This document shows positions 2,694 through 21,293 of a DNA stretch of 64,000 nucleotides, in pieces. Origin of the DNA: Schwartzia succinivorans DSM 10502. Its GTDB lineage: Bacteria > Bacillota > Negativicutes > Selenomonadales > Selenomonadaceae. The stretch is taken from contig NZ_FQUG01000006.1 in the NCBI RefSeq assembly GCF_900129225.1, forward strand, positions 1-64,000. Direction: 5' to 3'. The notes beneath the pieces are model-generated. The model was not told the origin of the DNA. It saw only the letters and a list, made by a program, of their open reading frames with translations, and searched no databases. How positions within the stretch are numbered: position 1 is the first letter of the stretch; the number at the start of each line of letters is the position of its first letter. Made by a program: the position numbers and the translations under genes.

Positions 2694-4700
2694 TTAAACT
2701 TTGAACTTATCAACAGCTGATTTAAGCTCGTCAGCCAGCGATGCAAGGCTGCGGCTTGCGGAAGCAACCTCCTGCATGGAAGCGGACTGCTCCTCTGTCG
2801 CAGCGGAAACCGTCTGCGCTTCGTCAGAGTTCTTCGTGCTGATATCCTTGATGGAAATCATGGATTTACGCATATCCTCAGTCTGTCCTGCCATTTCACG
2901 GACGCTTGTGGATACTTCACTTACGCCGTCTGCAAGAGTCGTGATGGCTCCGCTGATGTTAGCGAATACCTCATCTGCGGACGCAACTGCCTCACGGCCG
3001 TTCTTAACGCTGTCTGTACCTGCTTTGCCGGCCTCGACAGCCTTCTGCATATCAATATTATTCTGGGCAACGAGGTCCGCAATCTGTTTGGAGGATTTAC
3101 CGGATTCCTCAGCCAGCTTTCTGACTTCGTCAGCAACAACCGCAAAGCCGCGGCCATGCTCACCTGCGCGGGCAGCCTCGATGGCAGCGTTGAGCGCAAG
3201 AAGATTCGTCTGCTCTGCAATGCTTGTGATGAGCTCGACGATGGAACGGATTTCCTCAGAGCCCTTTGCCAGCTCCTCGATGGATTTCTGAACCGTAGCG
3301 GTTGCTTCATTAATAGTATCCATATGCTGGACAACCTGCTGGATAGAAGCACGTCCGCCTGCAACCTGCTCAACAGCAGAATGCGTGTCACGCGCAAGGG
3401 AATCCGTGCGGTCTGCAATACCCTCTGCAGCCTCAGCCATGGAAGCTGATACCTTGTTGGCATTCTCCGCATCATGGGACTGCTCAGTAACACCTGCAGC
3501 AATCTCCGTAATGGAGCCTGCAACCTGGTTAGCCGCCTCAGCGGACTGATGAGCCGCTGCTGTCAGCTCCTCACTGGAGGAAGCAACGCTCTCGGATTTC
3601 TCGTGAATGCCCTTCAAAAGCTTGCGCATTGTACGGCGCATTTCGTTGAAGCCTTCTGCGAGAGCACCGATTTCATCATTGGAGTCAACAACAACACGGT
3701 CCTGACGCAGGTCTCCGCCATTGATGATACGACATTCCTCAAGGAGTGCCTTGATCGGGTCGGAGACTCTCTTCGCGAACATGAAGATAACTCCTACAGC
3801 GATAAGAATCGTAATAATTGAAATACCCAGCATAGCCTTCAGAAGCATGGTGGATGCCGCCTCAACCTCGCTTACCGGTGCGCATGCGATAGCCACCCAT
3901 CTGCGGCCTGCATGATGCACAGGTGTCAAAACTGCTTTGTTATGCACGCCCTTGCGTGTCGTATAATAAGTGGAAACAACCTTATCAGTCTCCAGTACCT
4001 CCTTGAATCCATCAACAAGACGCTGATCAAGAGGCTGCTCCTTATCAGACTTGGTGAGATCCAGTTTTCCTACGGCCTCAGGAAGCTGCTTATATCCGAT
4101 GCAGATACCGCTTTCATCTATCACGTAGACATAGCCTGTGTCCATGAACTTGAACTCTCCGACTATATCCGAAAGAGCCTCAAGCTCAATGGTGCCGTAA
4201 ACAATTCCCGTTGTACGGCCGTTTTCAAGAATCGGATACGAGATAACAGATATGAGTTTTCCAGTCGAACGTGAAACACTGGGGCCTCCCATAACAGGCT
4301 TGCCGGTTGACATTACTTTCTGGAAGGATTTACTTGAGGAACGATCTATCTCAAGATTCTTATCGGTGATGGCAGGCCCGGTTGCCGGCTGATACCCGAC
4401 GAGAGCCAGTCCCTTCTCGTGCTCCCGGGTTTCGGCAAGCGTTGCCACACGCTGTTCCCGTGTACCGTTACGGATTACAGGATGATAGGAAAGATCATTC
4501 AGGCGTATTTCCTTTTCCTGAACGATTTTTTCAAGCTCCTTTGCTGCCTGACCGGCAACCGCACGCGCATACTCGTCAGCATTGCTCACGAGAGCGTTGT
4601 TTGATACGTAGTAGCTAATACCCGATAAAGCAATAAAGCATATCAAAAACAACGGAAGAAGCACTACCAAAAATTTTGTCCTTATTGATGAAAACATCAT
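2694..4700 (-). CDS. Methyl-accepting chemotaxis protein with extracellular dCACHE-type sensor
   Basis: A 668-residue receptor: membrane segment 1 at about 10-30, an outer sensor domain of about 255 residues (YVYVIDESG resembles dCACHE domains), membrane segment 2 at about 288-308, then a HAMP linker and a long coiled-coil signalling domain. The highly conserved hairpin tip reads [20 protein letters not shown], followed by [19 protein letters not shown], which contacts CheA/CheW. The ligand is unknown; many dCACHE domains bind amino acids or amines. It is monocistronic, with a terminator directly downstream. No other chemotaxis gene is in the window. Confidence 0.96.
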
Positions 4701-17488: not shown

Positions 17489-18244
17489 ATGAATAAAAAT
17501 AATTTATCAAAAGTGCAGCAGGAAACCTTTGACCCTGCCATACTGAACGACATTGAAGGCTACTGGAACGAACGCAGCAAGACCTTCAGCGAAACACGTA
17601 AAAAGGAAATGTCAGGTCCCGGCGGCGCCGCATGGCTGAAGCTTTTGTCGGAACATCTGCCGACGGGCAGAACCCTCAAGGTACTGGATATCGGCACAGG
17701 CGCGGGCTTCTTCGCGATTCTTCTCGCAAAGCTGGGCCATGACGTGACAGGTATCGACATGTCCGCAGACATGCTTCATCAGGCAAAGCTCAACACAGTT
17801 GCTCTCGGCGTCCGCGCGAAATTCCAAAAGATGAACGCCCAGGAAACGGACTTTGACGACAACACCTTTGATGCCATCATCAGCCGCAACCTCACGTGGA
17901 CTCTCCCCGATGCAATGGAAGCCTACCACGAGTGGCACAGAATCCTGAAGCCCGGCGGACTTCTCATGAACTTCGACGGTGACTACGGCAAGGCTGACTT
18001 CACGCGCCACGACGATAAGGAAAACGTCCACGCCAATATCCGTCAGGAGCTTGTAGACACCTGCAACCGCATCAAAAACTCCCTGCGCATCAGCACCCAC
18101 CGCCGCCCCGCGTGGGATATCGAGGTGCTGAAAAATCTCGGCATGCAGGTGGAATATGAAGAAGATATATCCCCCATTGTCTATAACGACCCTGAAATGC
18201 ACTACGACGGCATACCCCTCTTTGCCATCTACGCAGTAAAATAA
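17489..18244 (+). CDS. Class I SAM-dependent methyltransferase divergent from the ABC transporter operon
   Basis: A 251-residue methyltransferase: motif I VLDIGTGAGFFAILL (about 54-68), acidic loop TGIDMSADML, and the motif SRNLTWTLPDAME (about 134). Its C-terminus RPAWDIEVLKNLGM resembles the methyltransferase at the far end of the transporter operon. Stem and divergent promoter upstream suggest co-regulation with transport. The last 52 bp of the gene are repeated at 21228-21279, next to a terminator, showing that a 3-kb segment was inserted exactly at its stop codon. Confidence 0.88.
   Translation: MNKNNLSKVQQETFDPAILNDIEGYWNERSKTFSETRKKEMSGPGGAAWLKLLSEHLPTGRTLKVLDIGTGAGFFAILLAKLGHDVTGIDMSADMLHQAKLNTVALGVRAKFQKMNAQETDFDDNTFDAIISRNLTWTLPDAMEAYHEWHRILKPGGLLMNFDGDYGKADFTRHDDKENVHANIRQELVDTCNRIKNSLRISTHRRPAWDIEVLKNLGMQVEYEEDISPIVYNDPEMHYDGIPLFAIYAVK
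18193..18244 (+). repeat. 52-bp direct repeat, left copy (3' end of the methyltransferase gene)
   Basis: From TGAAATGCACTACGACGG to GCAGTAAAATAA this stretch matches 21228-21279 with a single C/T difference over 52 bp; similarity stops right after the stop codon. It looks like an attachment site (attL) of an integrated element. Confidence 0.85.
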
Positions 18245-18344
18245 GCTGTTATTGGTACTTTCGCAATTAAAAAACTCTCGCAACTTGCAAAAGATTTCTT
18301 TTTAACTGCCATTGACTACAGTCATCAAAAAATTTATACTTTAA

Positions 18345-18414
18345 GTGCTTGTTTGAAGGATATTCGTATCCTTAAATTTAATCCCCCTGCGTGTTGGTAG
18401 CACCAGGGGGATTT
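18345..18414. repeat. Two-hairpin motif, copy 1
   Basis: AAGGATA-TTCG-TATCCTT (18356-18373) is a perfect hairpin with a TTCG loop. It is followed by AATCCCCCTG...CAGGGGGATT (18380-18413), with an inner GTG/CAC pair and loop TTGGTAG (18394-18400). The flank GCTTGTTTGAAG and both hairpins recur at 19775-19845 with compensating changes. On the minus strand the second hairpin could also end the 18416-19729 operon. Confidence 0.65.
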
Positions 18415-18415
18415 C

Positions 18416-18715
18416 TTATTCCTCGAAGAGAAATTCACGGATTAATGCACGAAAGGACTTCCCATTTAGAAACGGCATTTCAAGTAAGTCCTTAAAATTT
18501 TCATTTGAAATAACTTCCTTGAAAGCCGGTTGTGTGACAATAGCGTACCTATGTCCAATACGGGTTACCATATACTCCTGCCCGTCATACCAAAATAATG
18601 TTTCAACTGTCAGCGGTGGATTATCCTCCCGTTCTGGCCATTCGTCCCAGCTTTGCCATTTTATATATTCATCCATTGTTATTCGAATTACGTGCTTTCC
18701 ATTGGGCCCACGCAT
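18416..18715 (-). CDS. Hypothetical protein, last gene of the island operon
   Basis: A 99-residue protein not recognised by family. It is acidic and aromatic-rich (MDEYIKWQSWDEWPERED, then LFWYDGQEYMVTRIG), with a C-terminal helix RALIREFLFEE. The ATG at 18715 has GGAGAG 6 nt upstream. It overlaps the preceding gene by 47 bp. Small overlapping partner genes of this kind are often immunity proteins or antitoxins, but nothing in the sequence proves it. Confidence 0.65.
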   Translation of the reverse strand: MRGPNGKHVIRITMDEYIKWQSWDEWPEREDNPPLTVETLFWYDGQEYMVTRIGHRYAIVTQPAFKEVISNENFKDLLEMPFLNGKSFRALIREFLFEE

Positions 18716-19106
18716 AATCTCTCCTCTCCCTCCACACATCACTGATAAGACTTGCAAGCTTCTTTTCCTTAACCGTCAGTTTTGATGCACCTTTTGGGGA
18801 ATCGTTTTCGTTGTGCTCATATCCGTGATGAATATGCGGCATCATTCCCGCATGTCCATGCTGAAGGTCAATCTGCTTTTCCTTCTTATTTGACTTGTCG
18901 TAATATGAAATATACTTCGGCTCCCCCGTAACTCTATCAAGCGTCACGTACACTCTGTTATTTGTCATGGTTTCTTTGGGAGCTTTCGTATTCCCGTTAT
19001 TAACAACCACAAATTTTATGTTTCCATATGTAAGCAGCGATGAATACTCTGACCCATATCTTTTTCCCTGTACACTCACACCGGAGCTGCTTCCTCTTCC
19101 ACCCAT
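18669..19106 (-). CDS. Phage-associated small protein with N-terminal GGRGSSSG motif and His-rich core
   Basis: A 145-residue protein starting MGGRGSSSGVS, an N-terminus common in small phage and mobile-element proteins. A His-rich segment, LQHGHAGMMPHIHHGYEH (about 81-98), resembles metal or catalytic motifs of some polymorphic-toxin domains; I cannot assign a family with certainty. It is translationally coupled to the upstream DUF4417 gene (TAATG overlap) and overlaps the downstream gene, so the three form one operon inside the repeat-bounded island. Confidence 0.65.
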   Translation of the reverse strand: MGGRGSSSGVSVQGKRYGSEYSSLLTYGNIKFVVVNNGNTKAPKETMTNNRVYVTLDRVTGEPKYISYYDKSNKKEKQIDLQHGHAGMMPHIHHGYEHNENDSPKGASKLTVKEKKLASLISDVWRERRDYAWAQWKARNSNNNG

Positions 19107-19729
19107 TACCTACCCACCTTTCCGAAGGCAGGATAATCTACGGCGATTATATTCCCTTCCATTTCCTCAAATGGTCTGCCAACGCAAAGAATCGCTTCTG
19201 GCTCAATTCTTCGAAGCATTTCTCTATATCCGGCCAAAAATTCCTCCTTTGCGTGCTTACATCCTATCATTCCTATTGCAACGGTTGACCCCTTTTCTAC
19301 TGCATCAAAGCAAAAATCATAAGACGCCTTCGTGCTCCAGCCAATTGTCGGAATAACTTTAACTCCCTGACTTTGCCAAAACGCACCGCACCATCTGCTG
19401 TGACCAACACTCTCTATCTGACGCCAATAATTCATGTCTGCGTAAGCAGAGAAATCCGGAGTGCACGCAAACATGTATTGTGAAACCTTTTCCAAAAATT
19501 TCTCCGGATTATTATAGGCTGCTAAAAATTTATAGTCATCTACAAAAAAATGCAGTCCCTTTTTCCTGTTTTCCTCGCTATCATTATATTTTGCGTCAGT
19601 TGCGGAAATGAGCCTAATTTTGAACAAATCAACGTCCTGTTTCCTTATACGCGGAAATTGGAATTTCCCCTCTGTTTCAAATTCATTTCGAAGGAACAGA
19701 GGATTACTACGGTAATCTTTTGATTTCAT
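19106..19729 (-). CDS. DUF4417 family protein
   Basis: A 207-residue protein that fits DUF4417, a family frequent in phages and mobile elements with unknown activity: RNEFETEGKFQFPRIR at the start, HFFVDDYKFLAAYNNPEKF in the middle and IGMIGCKHAKEEFLAGY later. ATG 19729 was chosen because GTGAGG lies 9 nt upstream. The leader can form competing hairpins over this ribosome site (19739-19800). First gene of the island operon. Confidence 0.8.
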   Translation of the reverse strand: MKSKDYRSNPLFLRNEFETEGKFQFPRIRKQDVDLFKIRLISATDAKYNDSEENRKKGLHFFVDDYKFLAAYNNPEKFLEKVSQYMFACTPDFSAYADMNYWRQIESVGHSRWCGAFWQSQGVKVIPTIGWSTKASYDFCFDAVEKGSTVAIGMIGCKHAKEEFLAGYREMLRRIEPEAILCVGRPFEEMEGNIIAVDYPAFGKVGR

Positions 19730-19738
19730 ATTTATTTT

Positions 19739-19800
19739 CCTCACTTTCTTACGTGAGGATACGAAACTCAACTGCTTGTTTGAAGAATATCCGTATCCTC
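19739..19800 (-). promoter_or_regulatory. DUF4417 leader with mutually exclusive pairings over the ribosome site
   Basis: Reading the minus strand: segment B (GAGGATACG, 19792-19800) can pair with A (TATTCT, 19784-19789) or, perfectly over 9 bp, with C (CGTATCCTC, 19755-19763). C also contains CCTCAC, which pairs perfectly with the ribosome site GTGAGG (19739-19744). A-B pairing would free C to hide the ribosome site; B-C pairing would expose it. Confidence 0.55.
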
Positions 19801-19845
19801 AAATTTGTTGAATAAACCCTGCTATTGGTAGTAGCGAAGTTTATC
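19775..19845. repeat. Two-hairpin motif, copy 2
   Basis: Shares the GCTTGTTTGAAG flank and the arrangement of copy 1. First hairpin: AGAATA/TATCCT around TCCG. Second: ATAAAC...GTTTAT outer stem (19812-19844), inner stem GCTA/TAGC and the identical loop TTGGTAG (19825-19831). Both stems differ in sequence from copy 1 but remain paired. Confidence 0.65.
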
Positions 19846-19932: not shown

Positions 19933-21027
19933 TCAATTTCTTATTATTCCCAACAAATCATAGTAGTAAAATGTCCTGTTTCTCTGTTTGCCATTTGTAT
20001 ATAAGATTTTGTTCTCCAGAAGGATATTTAGGAATCTGTTCAATGTAGCCGTTGGCATCTTCAGCATATTGGAAAGCTGTTTCACAGTCGTAACGGGGCA
20101 TTTGTAAAGTGAGGTTATCACTTGAACAATATTAGGAGAATTAGATTTTTCCATCGCTAAGCTCAAGTGCTTTTCATACAGATTATTTATTTCTGAAATA
20201 ATCATTATGTACTTGTCGCACTGCTTGGCTACCGTCTCTAGGAAAAACTTAATCCACTCGTTCCAATCATTATTTGTTCTTATATTCGTGAGCAATGTAT
20301 AGTATTTGTGTTTGTCGTGTTCCAATGCCTCACTGATAAAAAAGCACGGCAAATCTATCTGCTTCTTATAGAACAAATACATCGGAATAAGCATTCTGCC
20401 TACACGCCCGTTACCGTCCATGAAAGGATGTATCGTTTCAAACTGCGCGTGTATAATCGCAGTACGTACTAACGGTCTGTACGAATCATTAGGGTTATTC
20501 ATATATTCAATTAAATTCGCCATCAGCTCATGAACTTCTTCCGCAGCCGGCGGAATAAACGTAATTGTATGCACGGGATCATTTTTCCCTATATAATTTT
20601 GCTTCACTCTATACTTTCCAATAAGCTCTGGTTTTCTTACATTTCCACGCATCAATGCTATATGCATCTCATAGAAAAAATCGTCAGTGAATTTTTCTCT
20701 CGCAAGTATCCTATACCCCAATGTCGTTGCATAATGATAATTCAACACTTCATTCAGATTTTGATCATTTGTTTTTTCTTCCGTCTGATATGTGAGCACA
20801 CCGTCCAAAGTTGCCTGAGTTCCTTCAATTGCAGAGGATGCTAATGCCTCCTTCTGCTGCAGCGTTGGCATAAACCACTCACTACCAAGTTTGCTGTCAT
20901 GAATTTTTTCCTTATATACTTCCAGTTTAGCTGTAGCATCAATTAATTCTTCCACAAAATACGAATAATCTATTACTCCGCTAGGCAAAGGCAATTTACT
21001 TGCTTTGTAAGACTCATTCATCAGCAT
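19933..21027 (-). CDS. Fic family protein (AMPylase-type) with class II inhibitory motif
   Basis: A 364-residue Fic protein. The catalytic motif HPFMDGNGRVGR (about 188-199) is complete, with the His and the phosphate-binding NGR. SSAIEGTQ near residue 55 matches the S/T-xxx-E-G/N inhibitory helix of class II Fic proteins, so the enzyme is probably self-inhibited. The C-terminus (VKQLSNMLKMPTATLNRFL) looks like a winged-helix domain, typical of stand-alone Fic proteins. ATG 21027 has AAAGGAGG just upstream. It lies alone inside the repeat-bounded island. Confidence 0.93.
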   Translation of the reverse strand: MLMNESYKASKLPLPSGVIDYSYFVEELIDATAKLEVYKEKIHDSKLGSEWFMPTLQQKEALASSAIEGTQATLDGVLTYQTEEKTNDQNLNEVLNYHYATTLGYRILAREKFTDDFFYEMHIALMRGNVRKPELIGKYRVKQNYIGKNDPVHTITFIPPAAEEVHELMANLIEYMNNPNDSYRPLVRTAIIHAQFETIHPFMDGNGRVGRMLIPMYLFYKKQIDLPCFFISEALEHDKHKYYTLLTNIRTNNDWNEWIKFFLETVAKQCDKYIMIISEINNLYEKHLSLAMEKSNSPNIVQVITSLYKCPVTTVKQLSNMLKMPTATLNRFLNILLENKILYTNGKQRNRTFYYYDLLGIIRN

Positions 21028-21227
21028 TAACCCTCCTTTCAACTCGATTATACCAGAATAAGAATCATTTTTCAAGATTTTTGATTCTTATTTTCTTATA
21101 GCTATCTTTTTTATTCATTTTTCCTTTTATCGTTATCATGTAAAATCATACTAATTTGCAAAACTCGCTAAAATTCAAGCAAACAGAAACATTAGAATGA
21201 TTCTTGCTCTCGTAAATGAGTCTAACT

Positions 21228-21279
21228 TGAAATGCACTACGACGGCATACCCCTCTTTGCCATCTATGCAGTAAAATAA
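21228..21279 (+). repeat. 52-bp direct repeat, right copy
   Basis: Repeats the last 52 bp of the methyltransferase gene (18193-18244) with one mismatch, but without the rest of the gene. It is followed by the terminator that would have served that gene. Likely attR of the 3-kb island. The remainder of 21076-21428 shows no gene. Confidence 0.85.
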
Positions 21280-21293
21280 ACTCTTATCCCTTC

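Follow-up and report, generated by a model that had tools for sequence, protein, structure and literature searches.

The DUF4417 operon within the 64,000-nt stretch of Schwartzia succinivorans DSM 10502 DNA that we analysed (contig NZ_FQUG01000006.1, positions 1 to 64,000; hereafter the window) is probably controlled by an antisense RNA, working in a manner similar to that of the par_pAD1 Fst/RNA II system yet with three genes, DUF4417, MGGRG and ORF3, as the target. Two direct copies of a two-hairpin unit of ∼75 nt are present in the window, at 18343-18413 (copy 1) and 19770-19844 (copy 2), and the order on the minus strand is Fic, copy 2, DUF4417, MGGRG, ORF3, copy 1. At the level of sequence, the reading is carried by the presence of both copies in eight loci, by the covariation of their stems, by an asymmetry in their promoters, and by the preferential pairing of each small RNA with its own partner. 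The two copies do not appear to be equivalent, in that copy 1 reads as a predicted small RNA of ∼70 nt and copy 2 as an element of the operon leader. What recurs in this phylum thus looks like an undescribed gene module under antisense RNA control.

The first gene of the operon (19106-19729, minus strand, ATG at 19729) encodes a protein of 207 residues containing DUF4417 (Pfam PF14386, E 1.2e-51). A profile search with this protein against solved structures returned no match, and the literature passages mentioning the domain, within the library that was searched, assign it no role. The second gene, MGGRG (18669-19106, minus strand), encodes 145 residues beginning MGGRGSSSG and corresponds to phrog_9479, of unknown function; it has homologues in Streptococcus and Dorea phages. 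The third, ORF3 (18416-18757, minus strand, 113 residues as listed), has homologues and falls into no known family. Just upstream of the leader lies the gene for a Fic protein of the SoFic type (19933-21075, minus strand), which matches the corresponding PADLOC model at 1.3e-100. Matches to the PADLOC defence models are confined to such neighbouring genes (Fic and an M78 protein), with DUF4417, MGGRG and ORF3 unmatched. The segment carrying Fic and DUF4417 is inserted at the 3' end of a methyltransferase gene, the last 60 bp of which (18193-18252, plus strand) are repeated at the far side (21228-21287, plus strand, 95% identical). A duplication bounding the segment in this way is as would be seen after site-specific integration; no integrase gene was seen inside the segment. 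The same genome (G000) has a second, distant DUF4417 gene, on contig C13 at 827-1345 (L057), without the motif.

A preliminary description of this DNA had claimed a duplicated two-hairpin motif, with an invariant TTGGTAG loop and stems that differ but stay paired. The motif is present, at the refined extents given above, and both window copies have the loop and the paired stems as described. The Y part of the two copies is 37 nt long and 89% identical. Their X hairpins have in common the loop TTGGTAG (18394-18400 in copy 1 and 19825-19831 in copy 2) and nothing else, the stems being different and still paired. Copy 1 folds much more stably than its dinucleotide shuffles on both strands (z -5.0 and -5.4), and copy 2 does so mainly on the operon (minus) strand (z -3.2, compared with -1.7 on the plus strand). 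The further claim of covarying stems is upheld on 18 aligned copies, in which 90.5% of cells are paired and both-sided changes occur in 12 of the 13 pairs of hairpin X, the main stem. The covariation score, calculated on an alignment that was fitted to the model and so favours the structure, is 0.699; slid structures score no more than 0.15 and shuffles no more than 0.23, with none of 500 shuffles reaching the observed value. The description held that a loop lacking conservation would count against it, and the loop proves to be conserved: on the operon strand it reads CTACCAA in 16 of the 18 copies and CGACCAA in the two from genome G519. This sole variant (TTGGTCG on the opposite strand) is found in both copies of a single locus, the stems of which differ. 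The hairpin RNA has no match above gathering score among Rfam families. An origin of TTGGTAG in a tRNA D-arm was considered and dropped, no tRNA having been found at the window locus and the hairpin being unlike a tRNA.

Members beyond the window, for which the preliminary description had proposed a model search, were found in several genomes. A covariance model built from the two window copies (R1) matched nothing but those copies in 189 genomes of the window's family. Run on 398 genomes of the phylum, it matched G519, which belongs to a different family and carries a homologous DUF4417-MGGRG-ORF3 operon with a copy at each end; a protein search in the family of G519 added one locus in G810 and two in G836, all of them with a pair of copies. 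The second model (R2), built on ten copies, was run as an unbiased search on 304 genomes, and 17 of its 18 matches lie at DUF4417-MGGRG-ORF3 operons or their remnants. It found both copies in G772, G802 and G812, and a remnant in G841. With these covariance models, the hairpin pair is seen to recur around homologous operons in eight complete loci, and two decayed loci (G831 and G955) have kept the downstream copy alone. A match in G957 (L127) is a hairpin without the operon and is probably due to chance, and one in G684 (L096) was judged to be a chance match to an ordinary terminator. We also rejected a CTACCAA site after the G127 operon, once a candidate for a third member, which is unstructured (z 0.76 and -0.10) and is matched by neither model. 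Exact-pattern searches of viral and genome contigs with the window sequence gave nothing or chance matches.

The motif is not obligatory, since three close operons of the same three-gene type, L054, L055 and L056, all from the family of the window, lack it. Nor is it general among other DUF4417 loci, a point that the preliminary description had suggested checking: it was not found in more distant loci, including those of phages. In six of the eight complete loci the operon is preceded by an XRE-type and/or ImmA/IrrE-type gene, and in the window and G772 by a Fic gene, the two Fic proteins being 65% identical. The M78 protein beside the operon matches the capP model of PADLOC (3e-10). On contig C22 of G772 (L099) there is a degenerate MGGRG gene with no intact DUF4417 neighbour, the complete locus of the same genome being on contig C89; from this pair of loci, the module seems to have been gained and lost.

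In the window, a predicted sigma-70 promoter directed against the operon (18312-18340, plus strand) consists of TTGACT at 18312, a spacer of 17 nt and TATACT at 18335. Promoters of this kind (TTGACN-17/18-TATAAT type, 10-12 matches of 12) are found at copy 1 in 10 of 10 loci, and end 2-5 nt before the copy in nine of them and 12 nt before it in one. By the same scoring, the eight copy-2 sites all have 7 of 12, no better than random stretches, which average 7.5 of 12 and of which 3% reach 10. A T-rich tract follows hairpin X at most copy-1 sites and is weak in the window (TTTCTTATT). Copy 1 thus combines a hairpin X that resembles an intrinsic terminator with a promoter against the operon, and copy 2 has neither. 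Given this promoter and T-rich tract, copy 1 reads as an RNA of ∼70 nt, predicted in the window to span 18343-18420 on the plus strand (ends approximate), with the Y hairpin at 18356-18373 and the terminator-like X hairpin at 18380-18413. Copy 2, on the minus strand, forms part of the leader of the DUF4417 operon, and has an X2 hairpin with the loop CTACCAA (19825-19831) and a Y2 hairpin (19782-19800). Upstream of copy 2, the search for an operon promoter gave no clear candidate.

Since the copies are direct repeats with opposite predicted transcription, the directions being inferred from promoters, the sequence of the small RNA is complementary to that of the operon leader. For the window, the predicted duplex has an energy of about -76 kcal/mol, and loop UUGGUAG can pair with loop CUACCAA at every position. 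Across the eight loci, the duplex of each small RNA with its own leader averages -65.8 kcal/mol, compared with -55.1 kcal/mol for swapped partners, and the true assignment is the best of all 40,320 permutations; identity of the Y part shows the same own-partner trend, reached by 26 of 40,320. This result is a property of the whole eight-locus set, as some single small RNAs (e.g. those of G519, G810, G802 and G812) are predicted to bind at least one foreign leader no less strongly than their own. Despite this prediction for foreign leaders, the loop change in G519 is common to both of its copies. Part of the similarity between own partners could come from a common origin or from gene conversion of the repeats, though the stems are unrelated.

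The leaders also contain sequences by which such pairing may be read out. In every one of the eight, an element that we call A lies downstream of Y2 and is complementary to its 5' arm, and there are sequences able to mask the Shine-Dalgarno site. Element A of the window (CGTATCCTCA; 19754-19763, minus strand) mimics part of the small RNA, and hairpin Z (19727-19766, minus strand) is predicted to mask the DUF4417 start codon together with the Shine-Dalgarno sequence, GTGAGGA. Pairing of A with Y2 averages -20.4 kcal/mol, against -8.0 kcal/mol with shuffled A, and the advantage of own-partner over swapped Y2:A pairing is modest (430 of 40,320). When Y2 is blocked in silico, pairing of the Shine-Dalgarno site rises in four of the eight leaders (G519, G836a, G772 and G812), from 0.15-0.38 to 0.66-0.83, and falls in none; the remaining leaders are already masked, and in these it is unchanged. 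The window leader is itself predicted to be closed with or without the small RNA. Modelled in this way, the leaders support, without proving, a competition between the small RNA and A for Y2.

A mechanism can be proposed in which copy 1 would be the gene of an antisense RNA of ∼70 nt, whose transcription would start at a dedicated promoter, run against the 3' end of the operon and stop at hairpin X, and copy 2 would be the target of this RNA, a diverged direct repeat in the oppositely transcribed operon leader. The leader loop CUACCAA would kiss the small-RNA loop UUGGUAG, whose sequence conforms to the YUNR motif of U-turns, and from this contact the duplex would extend through Y. In a free leader, Y2 would pair with element A just downstream, leaving the Shine-Dalgarno site open. 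With the small RNA on Y2, A and its neighbours would instead fold over the Shine-Dalgarno site and translation of DUF4417 would stop. Transcription of the small RNA and repression by it are inferred, as are a harmful product and a role in defence, and the operon looks like a potentially harmful effector silenced by an antisense RNA.

Plasmid copy-control antisense RNAs, such as pMV158 RNA II (PMC4485353), are also small structured RNAs with U-turn loops that pair with the leader of a regulated mRNA; ColIb-P9 Inc RNA is another of this kind. They differ from the RNA predicted here, which is chromosomal, is not linked to replication, and is encoded by a downstream duplicate instead of by overlap with its target. 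The closest likeness is to par_pAD1 (PMC7472228), where the RNAs converge, the direct repeats are read in opposite senses, a loop forms a U-turn and the Shine-Dalgarno sequence is hidden. Both systems would employ a convergent antisense RNA that owes its complementarity to oppositely transcribed direct repeats, a YUNR loop in a terminator-type hairpin, and an intramolecular hairpin masking the Shine-Dalgarno site. However, the target of par_pAD1 is a peptide toxin of 33 residues, whereas here the target is a three-gene operon, and in place of an Fst/Ldr toxin peptide its first gene encodes the 207-residue DUF4417 protein. Furthermore, the toxin mRNA and RNA II of par_pAD1 share a bidirectional terminator. 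Here none is shared, the small RNA lying beyond the third gene, ∼1.4 kb from the leader, and the whole two-hairpin unit is duplicated at that distance, at opposite ends of the operon. The locus does have what is expected of an antisense-controlled operon, namely a predicted RNA gene with its own promoter and terminator (the T-tract being weak in the window) and an extended complementarity to the leader that is maintained in evolution. Because the effector differs, no terminator is shared, and the whole unit is duplicated across a three-gene operon, we set the system apart from the Fst family and call it a new variant of antisense-RNA control. The XRE-type gene followed by an M78 peptidase gene before the operon at most loci resembles the CapH/CapP pairs of CBASS and ImmR/ImmA pairs, but no CBASS cyclase or effector was recognised beside the operon, and the window locus has Fic instead.

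Other explanations for the two copies were weighed against antisense control. Both could be cis-acting elements of the mRNA, in its 5' and 3' UTRs, that serve as binding sites for a ligand or a protein, such as an operon product, and so give feedback control with no small RNA. We think this improbable. It is consistent with the maintenance of the operon-strand hairpins of both copies through G-U pairs, and with the position of copy 2 next to a hairpin masking the Shine-Dalgarno site, yet it does not explain why a near-consensus opposing promoter is found at copy 1 in 10 of 10 loci and at copy 2 in none, nor the terminator-like tract after X on the opposing strand, nor the way in which each copy 1 is matched to the copy 2 of its locus. 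The system of AbiF and RCd22 (PMC12373285), in which a non-coding RNA controls a toxic protein of anti-phage type in a Bacillota genome, suggests another possibility, to which we give little credence: that the copy-1 RNA is a type III-like antitoxin, binding the DUF4417, MGGRG or ORF3 protein. The conserved structure of X with its fixed loop would suit a protein ligand, copy 2 could bind the same protein in autoregulation, and in phage relatives of the operon the MGGRG gene is directly followed by a structured RNA of another kind, a tRNA-like cloverleaf. As transcribed, however, the copies are reverse complements, so that a single protein would need to recognise two RNAs that differ; RCd22 binds protein, whereas the extended complementarity and own-partner coupling seen here are better explained by RNA-RNA pairing. 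In family searches, the proteins of the DUF4417 operon have no match to Abi-type families.

The preliminary description had offered a choice between a structured RNA flanking the DUF4417 operon, which stands, and a single-strand DNA recognition structure, which does not fit the asymmetry of the copies: copy 1 shows terminator-like features and a separate promoter directed against the operon, and copy 2 lies in the operon leader together with conserved elements that mask the Shine-Dalgarno site. For the same reason we consider it very unlikely that the copies are recombination or transposition sites functioning as folded single-stranded DNA, in the manner of integron attC or IS200/IS605, with the operon as a mobile cassette. 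Direct repeats on both sides of the operon, a scatter of loci unlike their neighbours, and the 60-bp duplication bounding the window segment all speak for such a cassette. Against it, the module reaches past copy 2, with XRE and/or ImmA, or Fic, preceding the operon in the eight complete loci, and the 60-bp repeats lie outside the copies. An integron attC site was considered since both copies follow a minus-strand gene, but inspection revealed no GTTRRRY/RYYYAAC core, and neither an integrase nor a Y1 transposase was recognised among the genes read at these loci.

The relatives of the operon in Streptococcus and Dorea phages have a DUF4417-MGGRG pair just before the terminase genes, followed by the tRNA-like cloverleaf. 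The cloverleaf is placed at the end of the MGGRG gene (L072 ∼4365-4440, L073 4343-4400 and L063 1917-1985), with similar places in L074, L076, L077, L083, L087 and L102, and in phages this position is between DUF4417-MGGRG and terS. It consists of an acceptor, a D-like arm, an anticodon-like arm with CCTTGATNGAGG and a T-arm with a TTCRANY-type loop; ARAGORN, where run, did not call the cloverleaf at the MGGRG end.

Separately, a pattern search with the Y part picked out four related phage contigs from IMG/VR (L105 10701-10771, L106 1348-1417, L107 693-762 and L108 1459-1528). In each, the stretch lies in the promoter-preceded leader of a DnaD-like replication gene, and ∼27 nt of it match the Y part of the small RNA almost exactly. 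The hairpin that follows has another loop, GTTGCGG, for which the same leader contains an exact complement, CCGCAAC, at a downstream position. In the loci examined, none of the window operon proteins, DUF4417 included, was found beside the stretch. Its predicted pairing with the eight operon leaders is -49 to -59 kcal/mol, a range that stands without a shuffled control, and we regard the stretch as a counterpart of the small RNA by way of a lead only. A tentative reading, which we think rather doubtful, is that in DUF4417-MGGRG-ORF3 we see an anti-phage module that has not been described before and is silenced by antisense RNA, and against which some phages (L105-L108) carry a decoy. If this were true, such an RNA of the phage might bind the leader in the host and hold the operon silent during infection.

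DUF4417 is a widespread domain, and the probable antisense silencing of a conserved operon that encodes it suggests that the product is dangerous if made at the wrong time. Antisense control of this kind would mean that the par_pAD1 style of regulation, familiar from very small peptide toxins, also operates on an operon of several genes beside XRE-ImmA or Fic genes, and the silencing gives a direct handle for testing the role of DUF4417.
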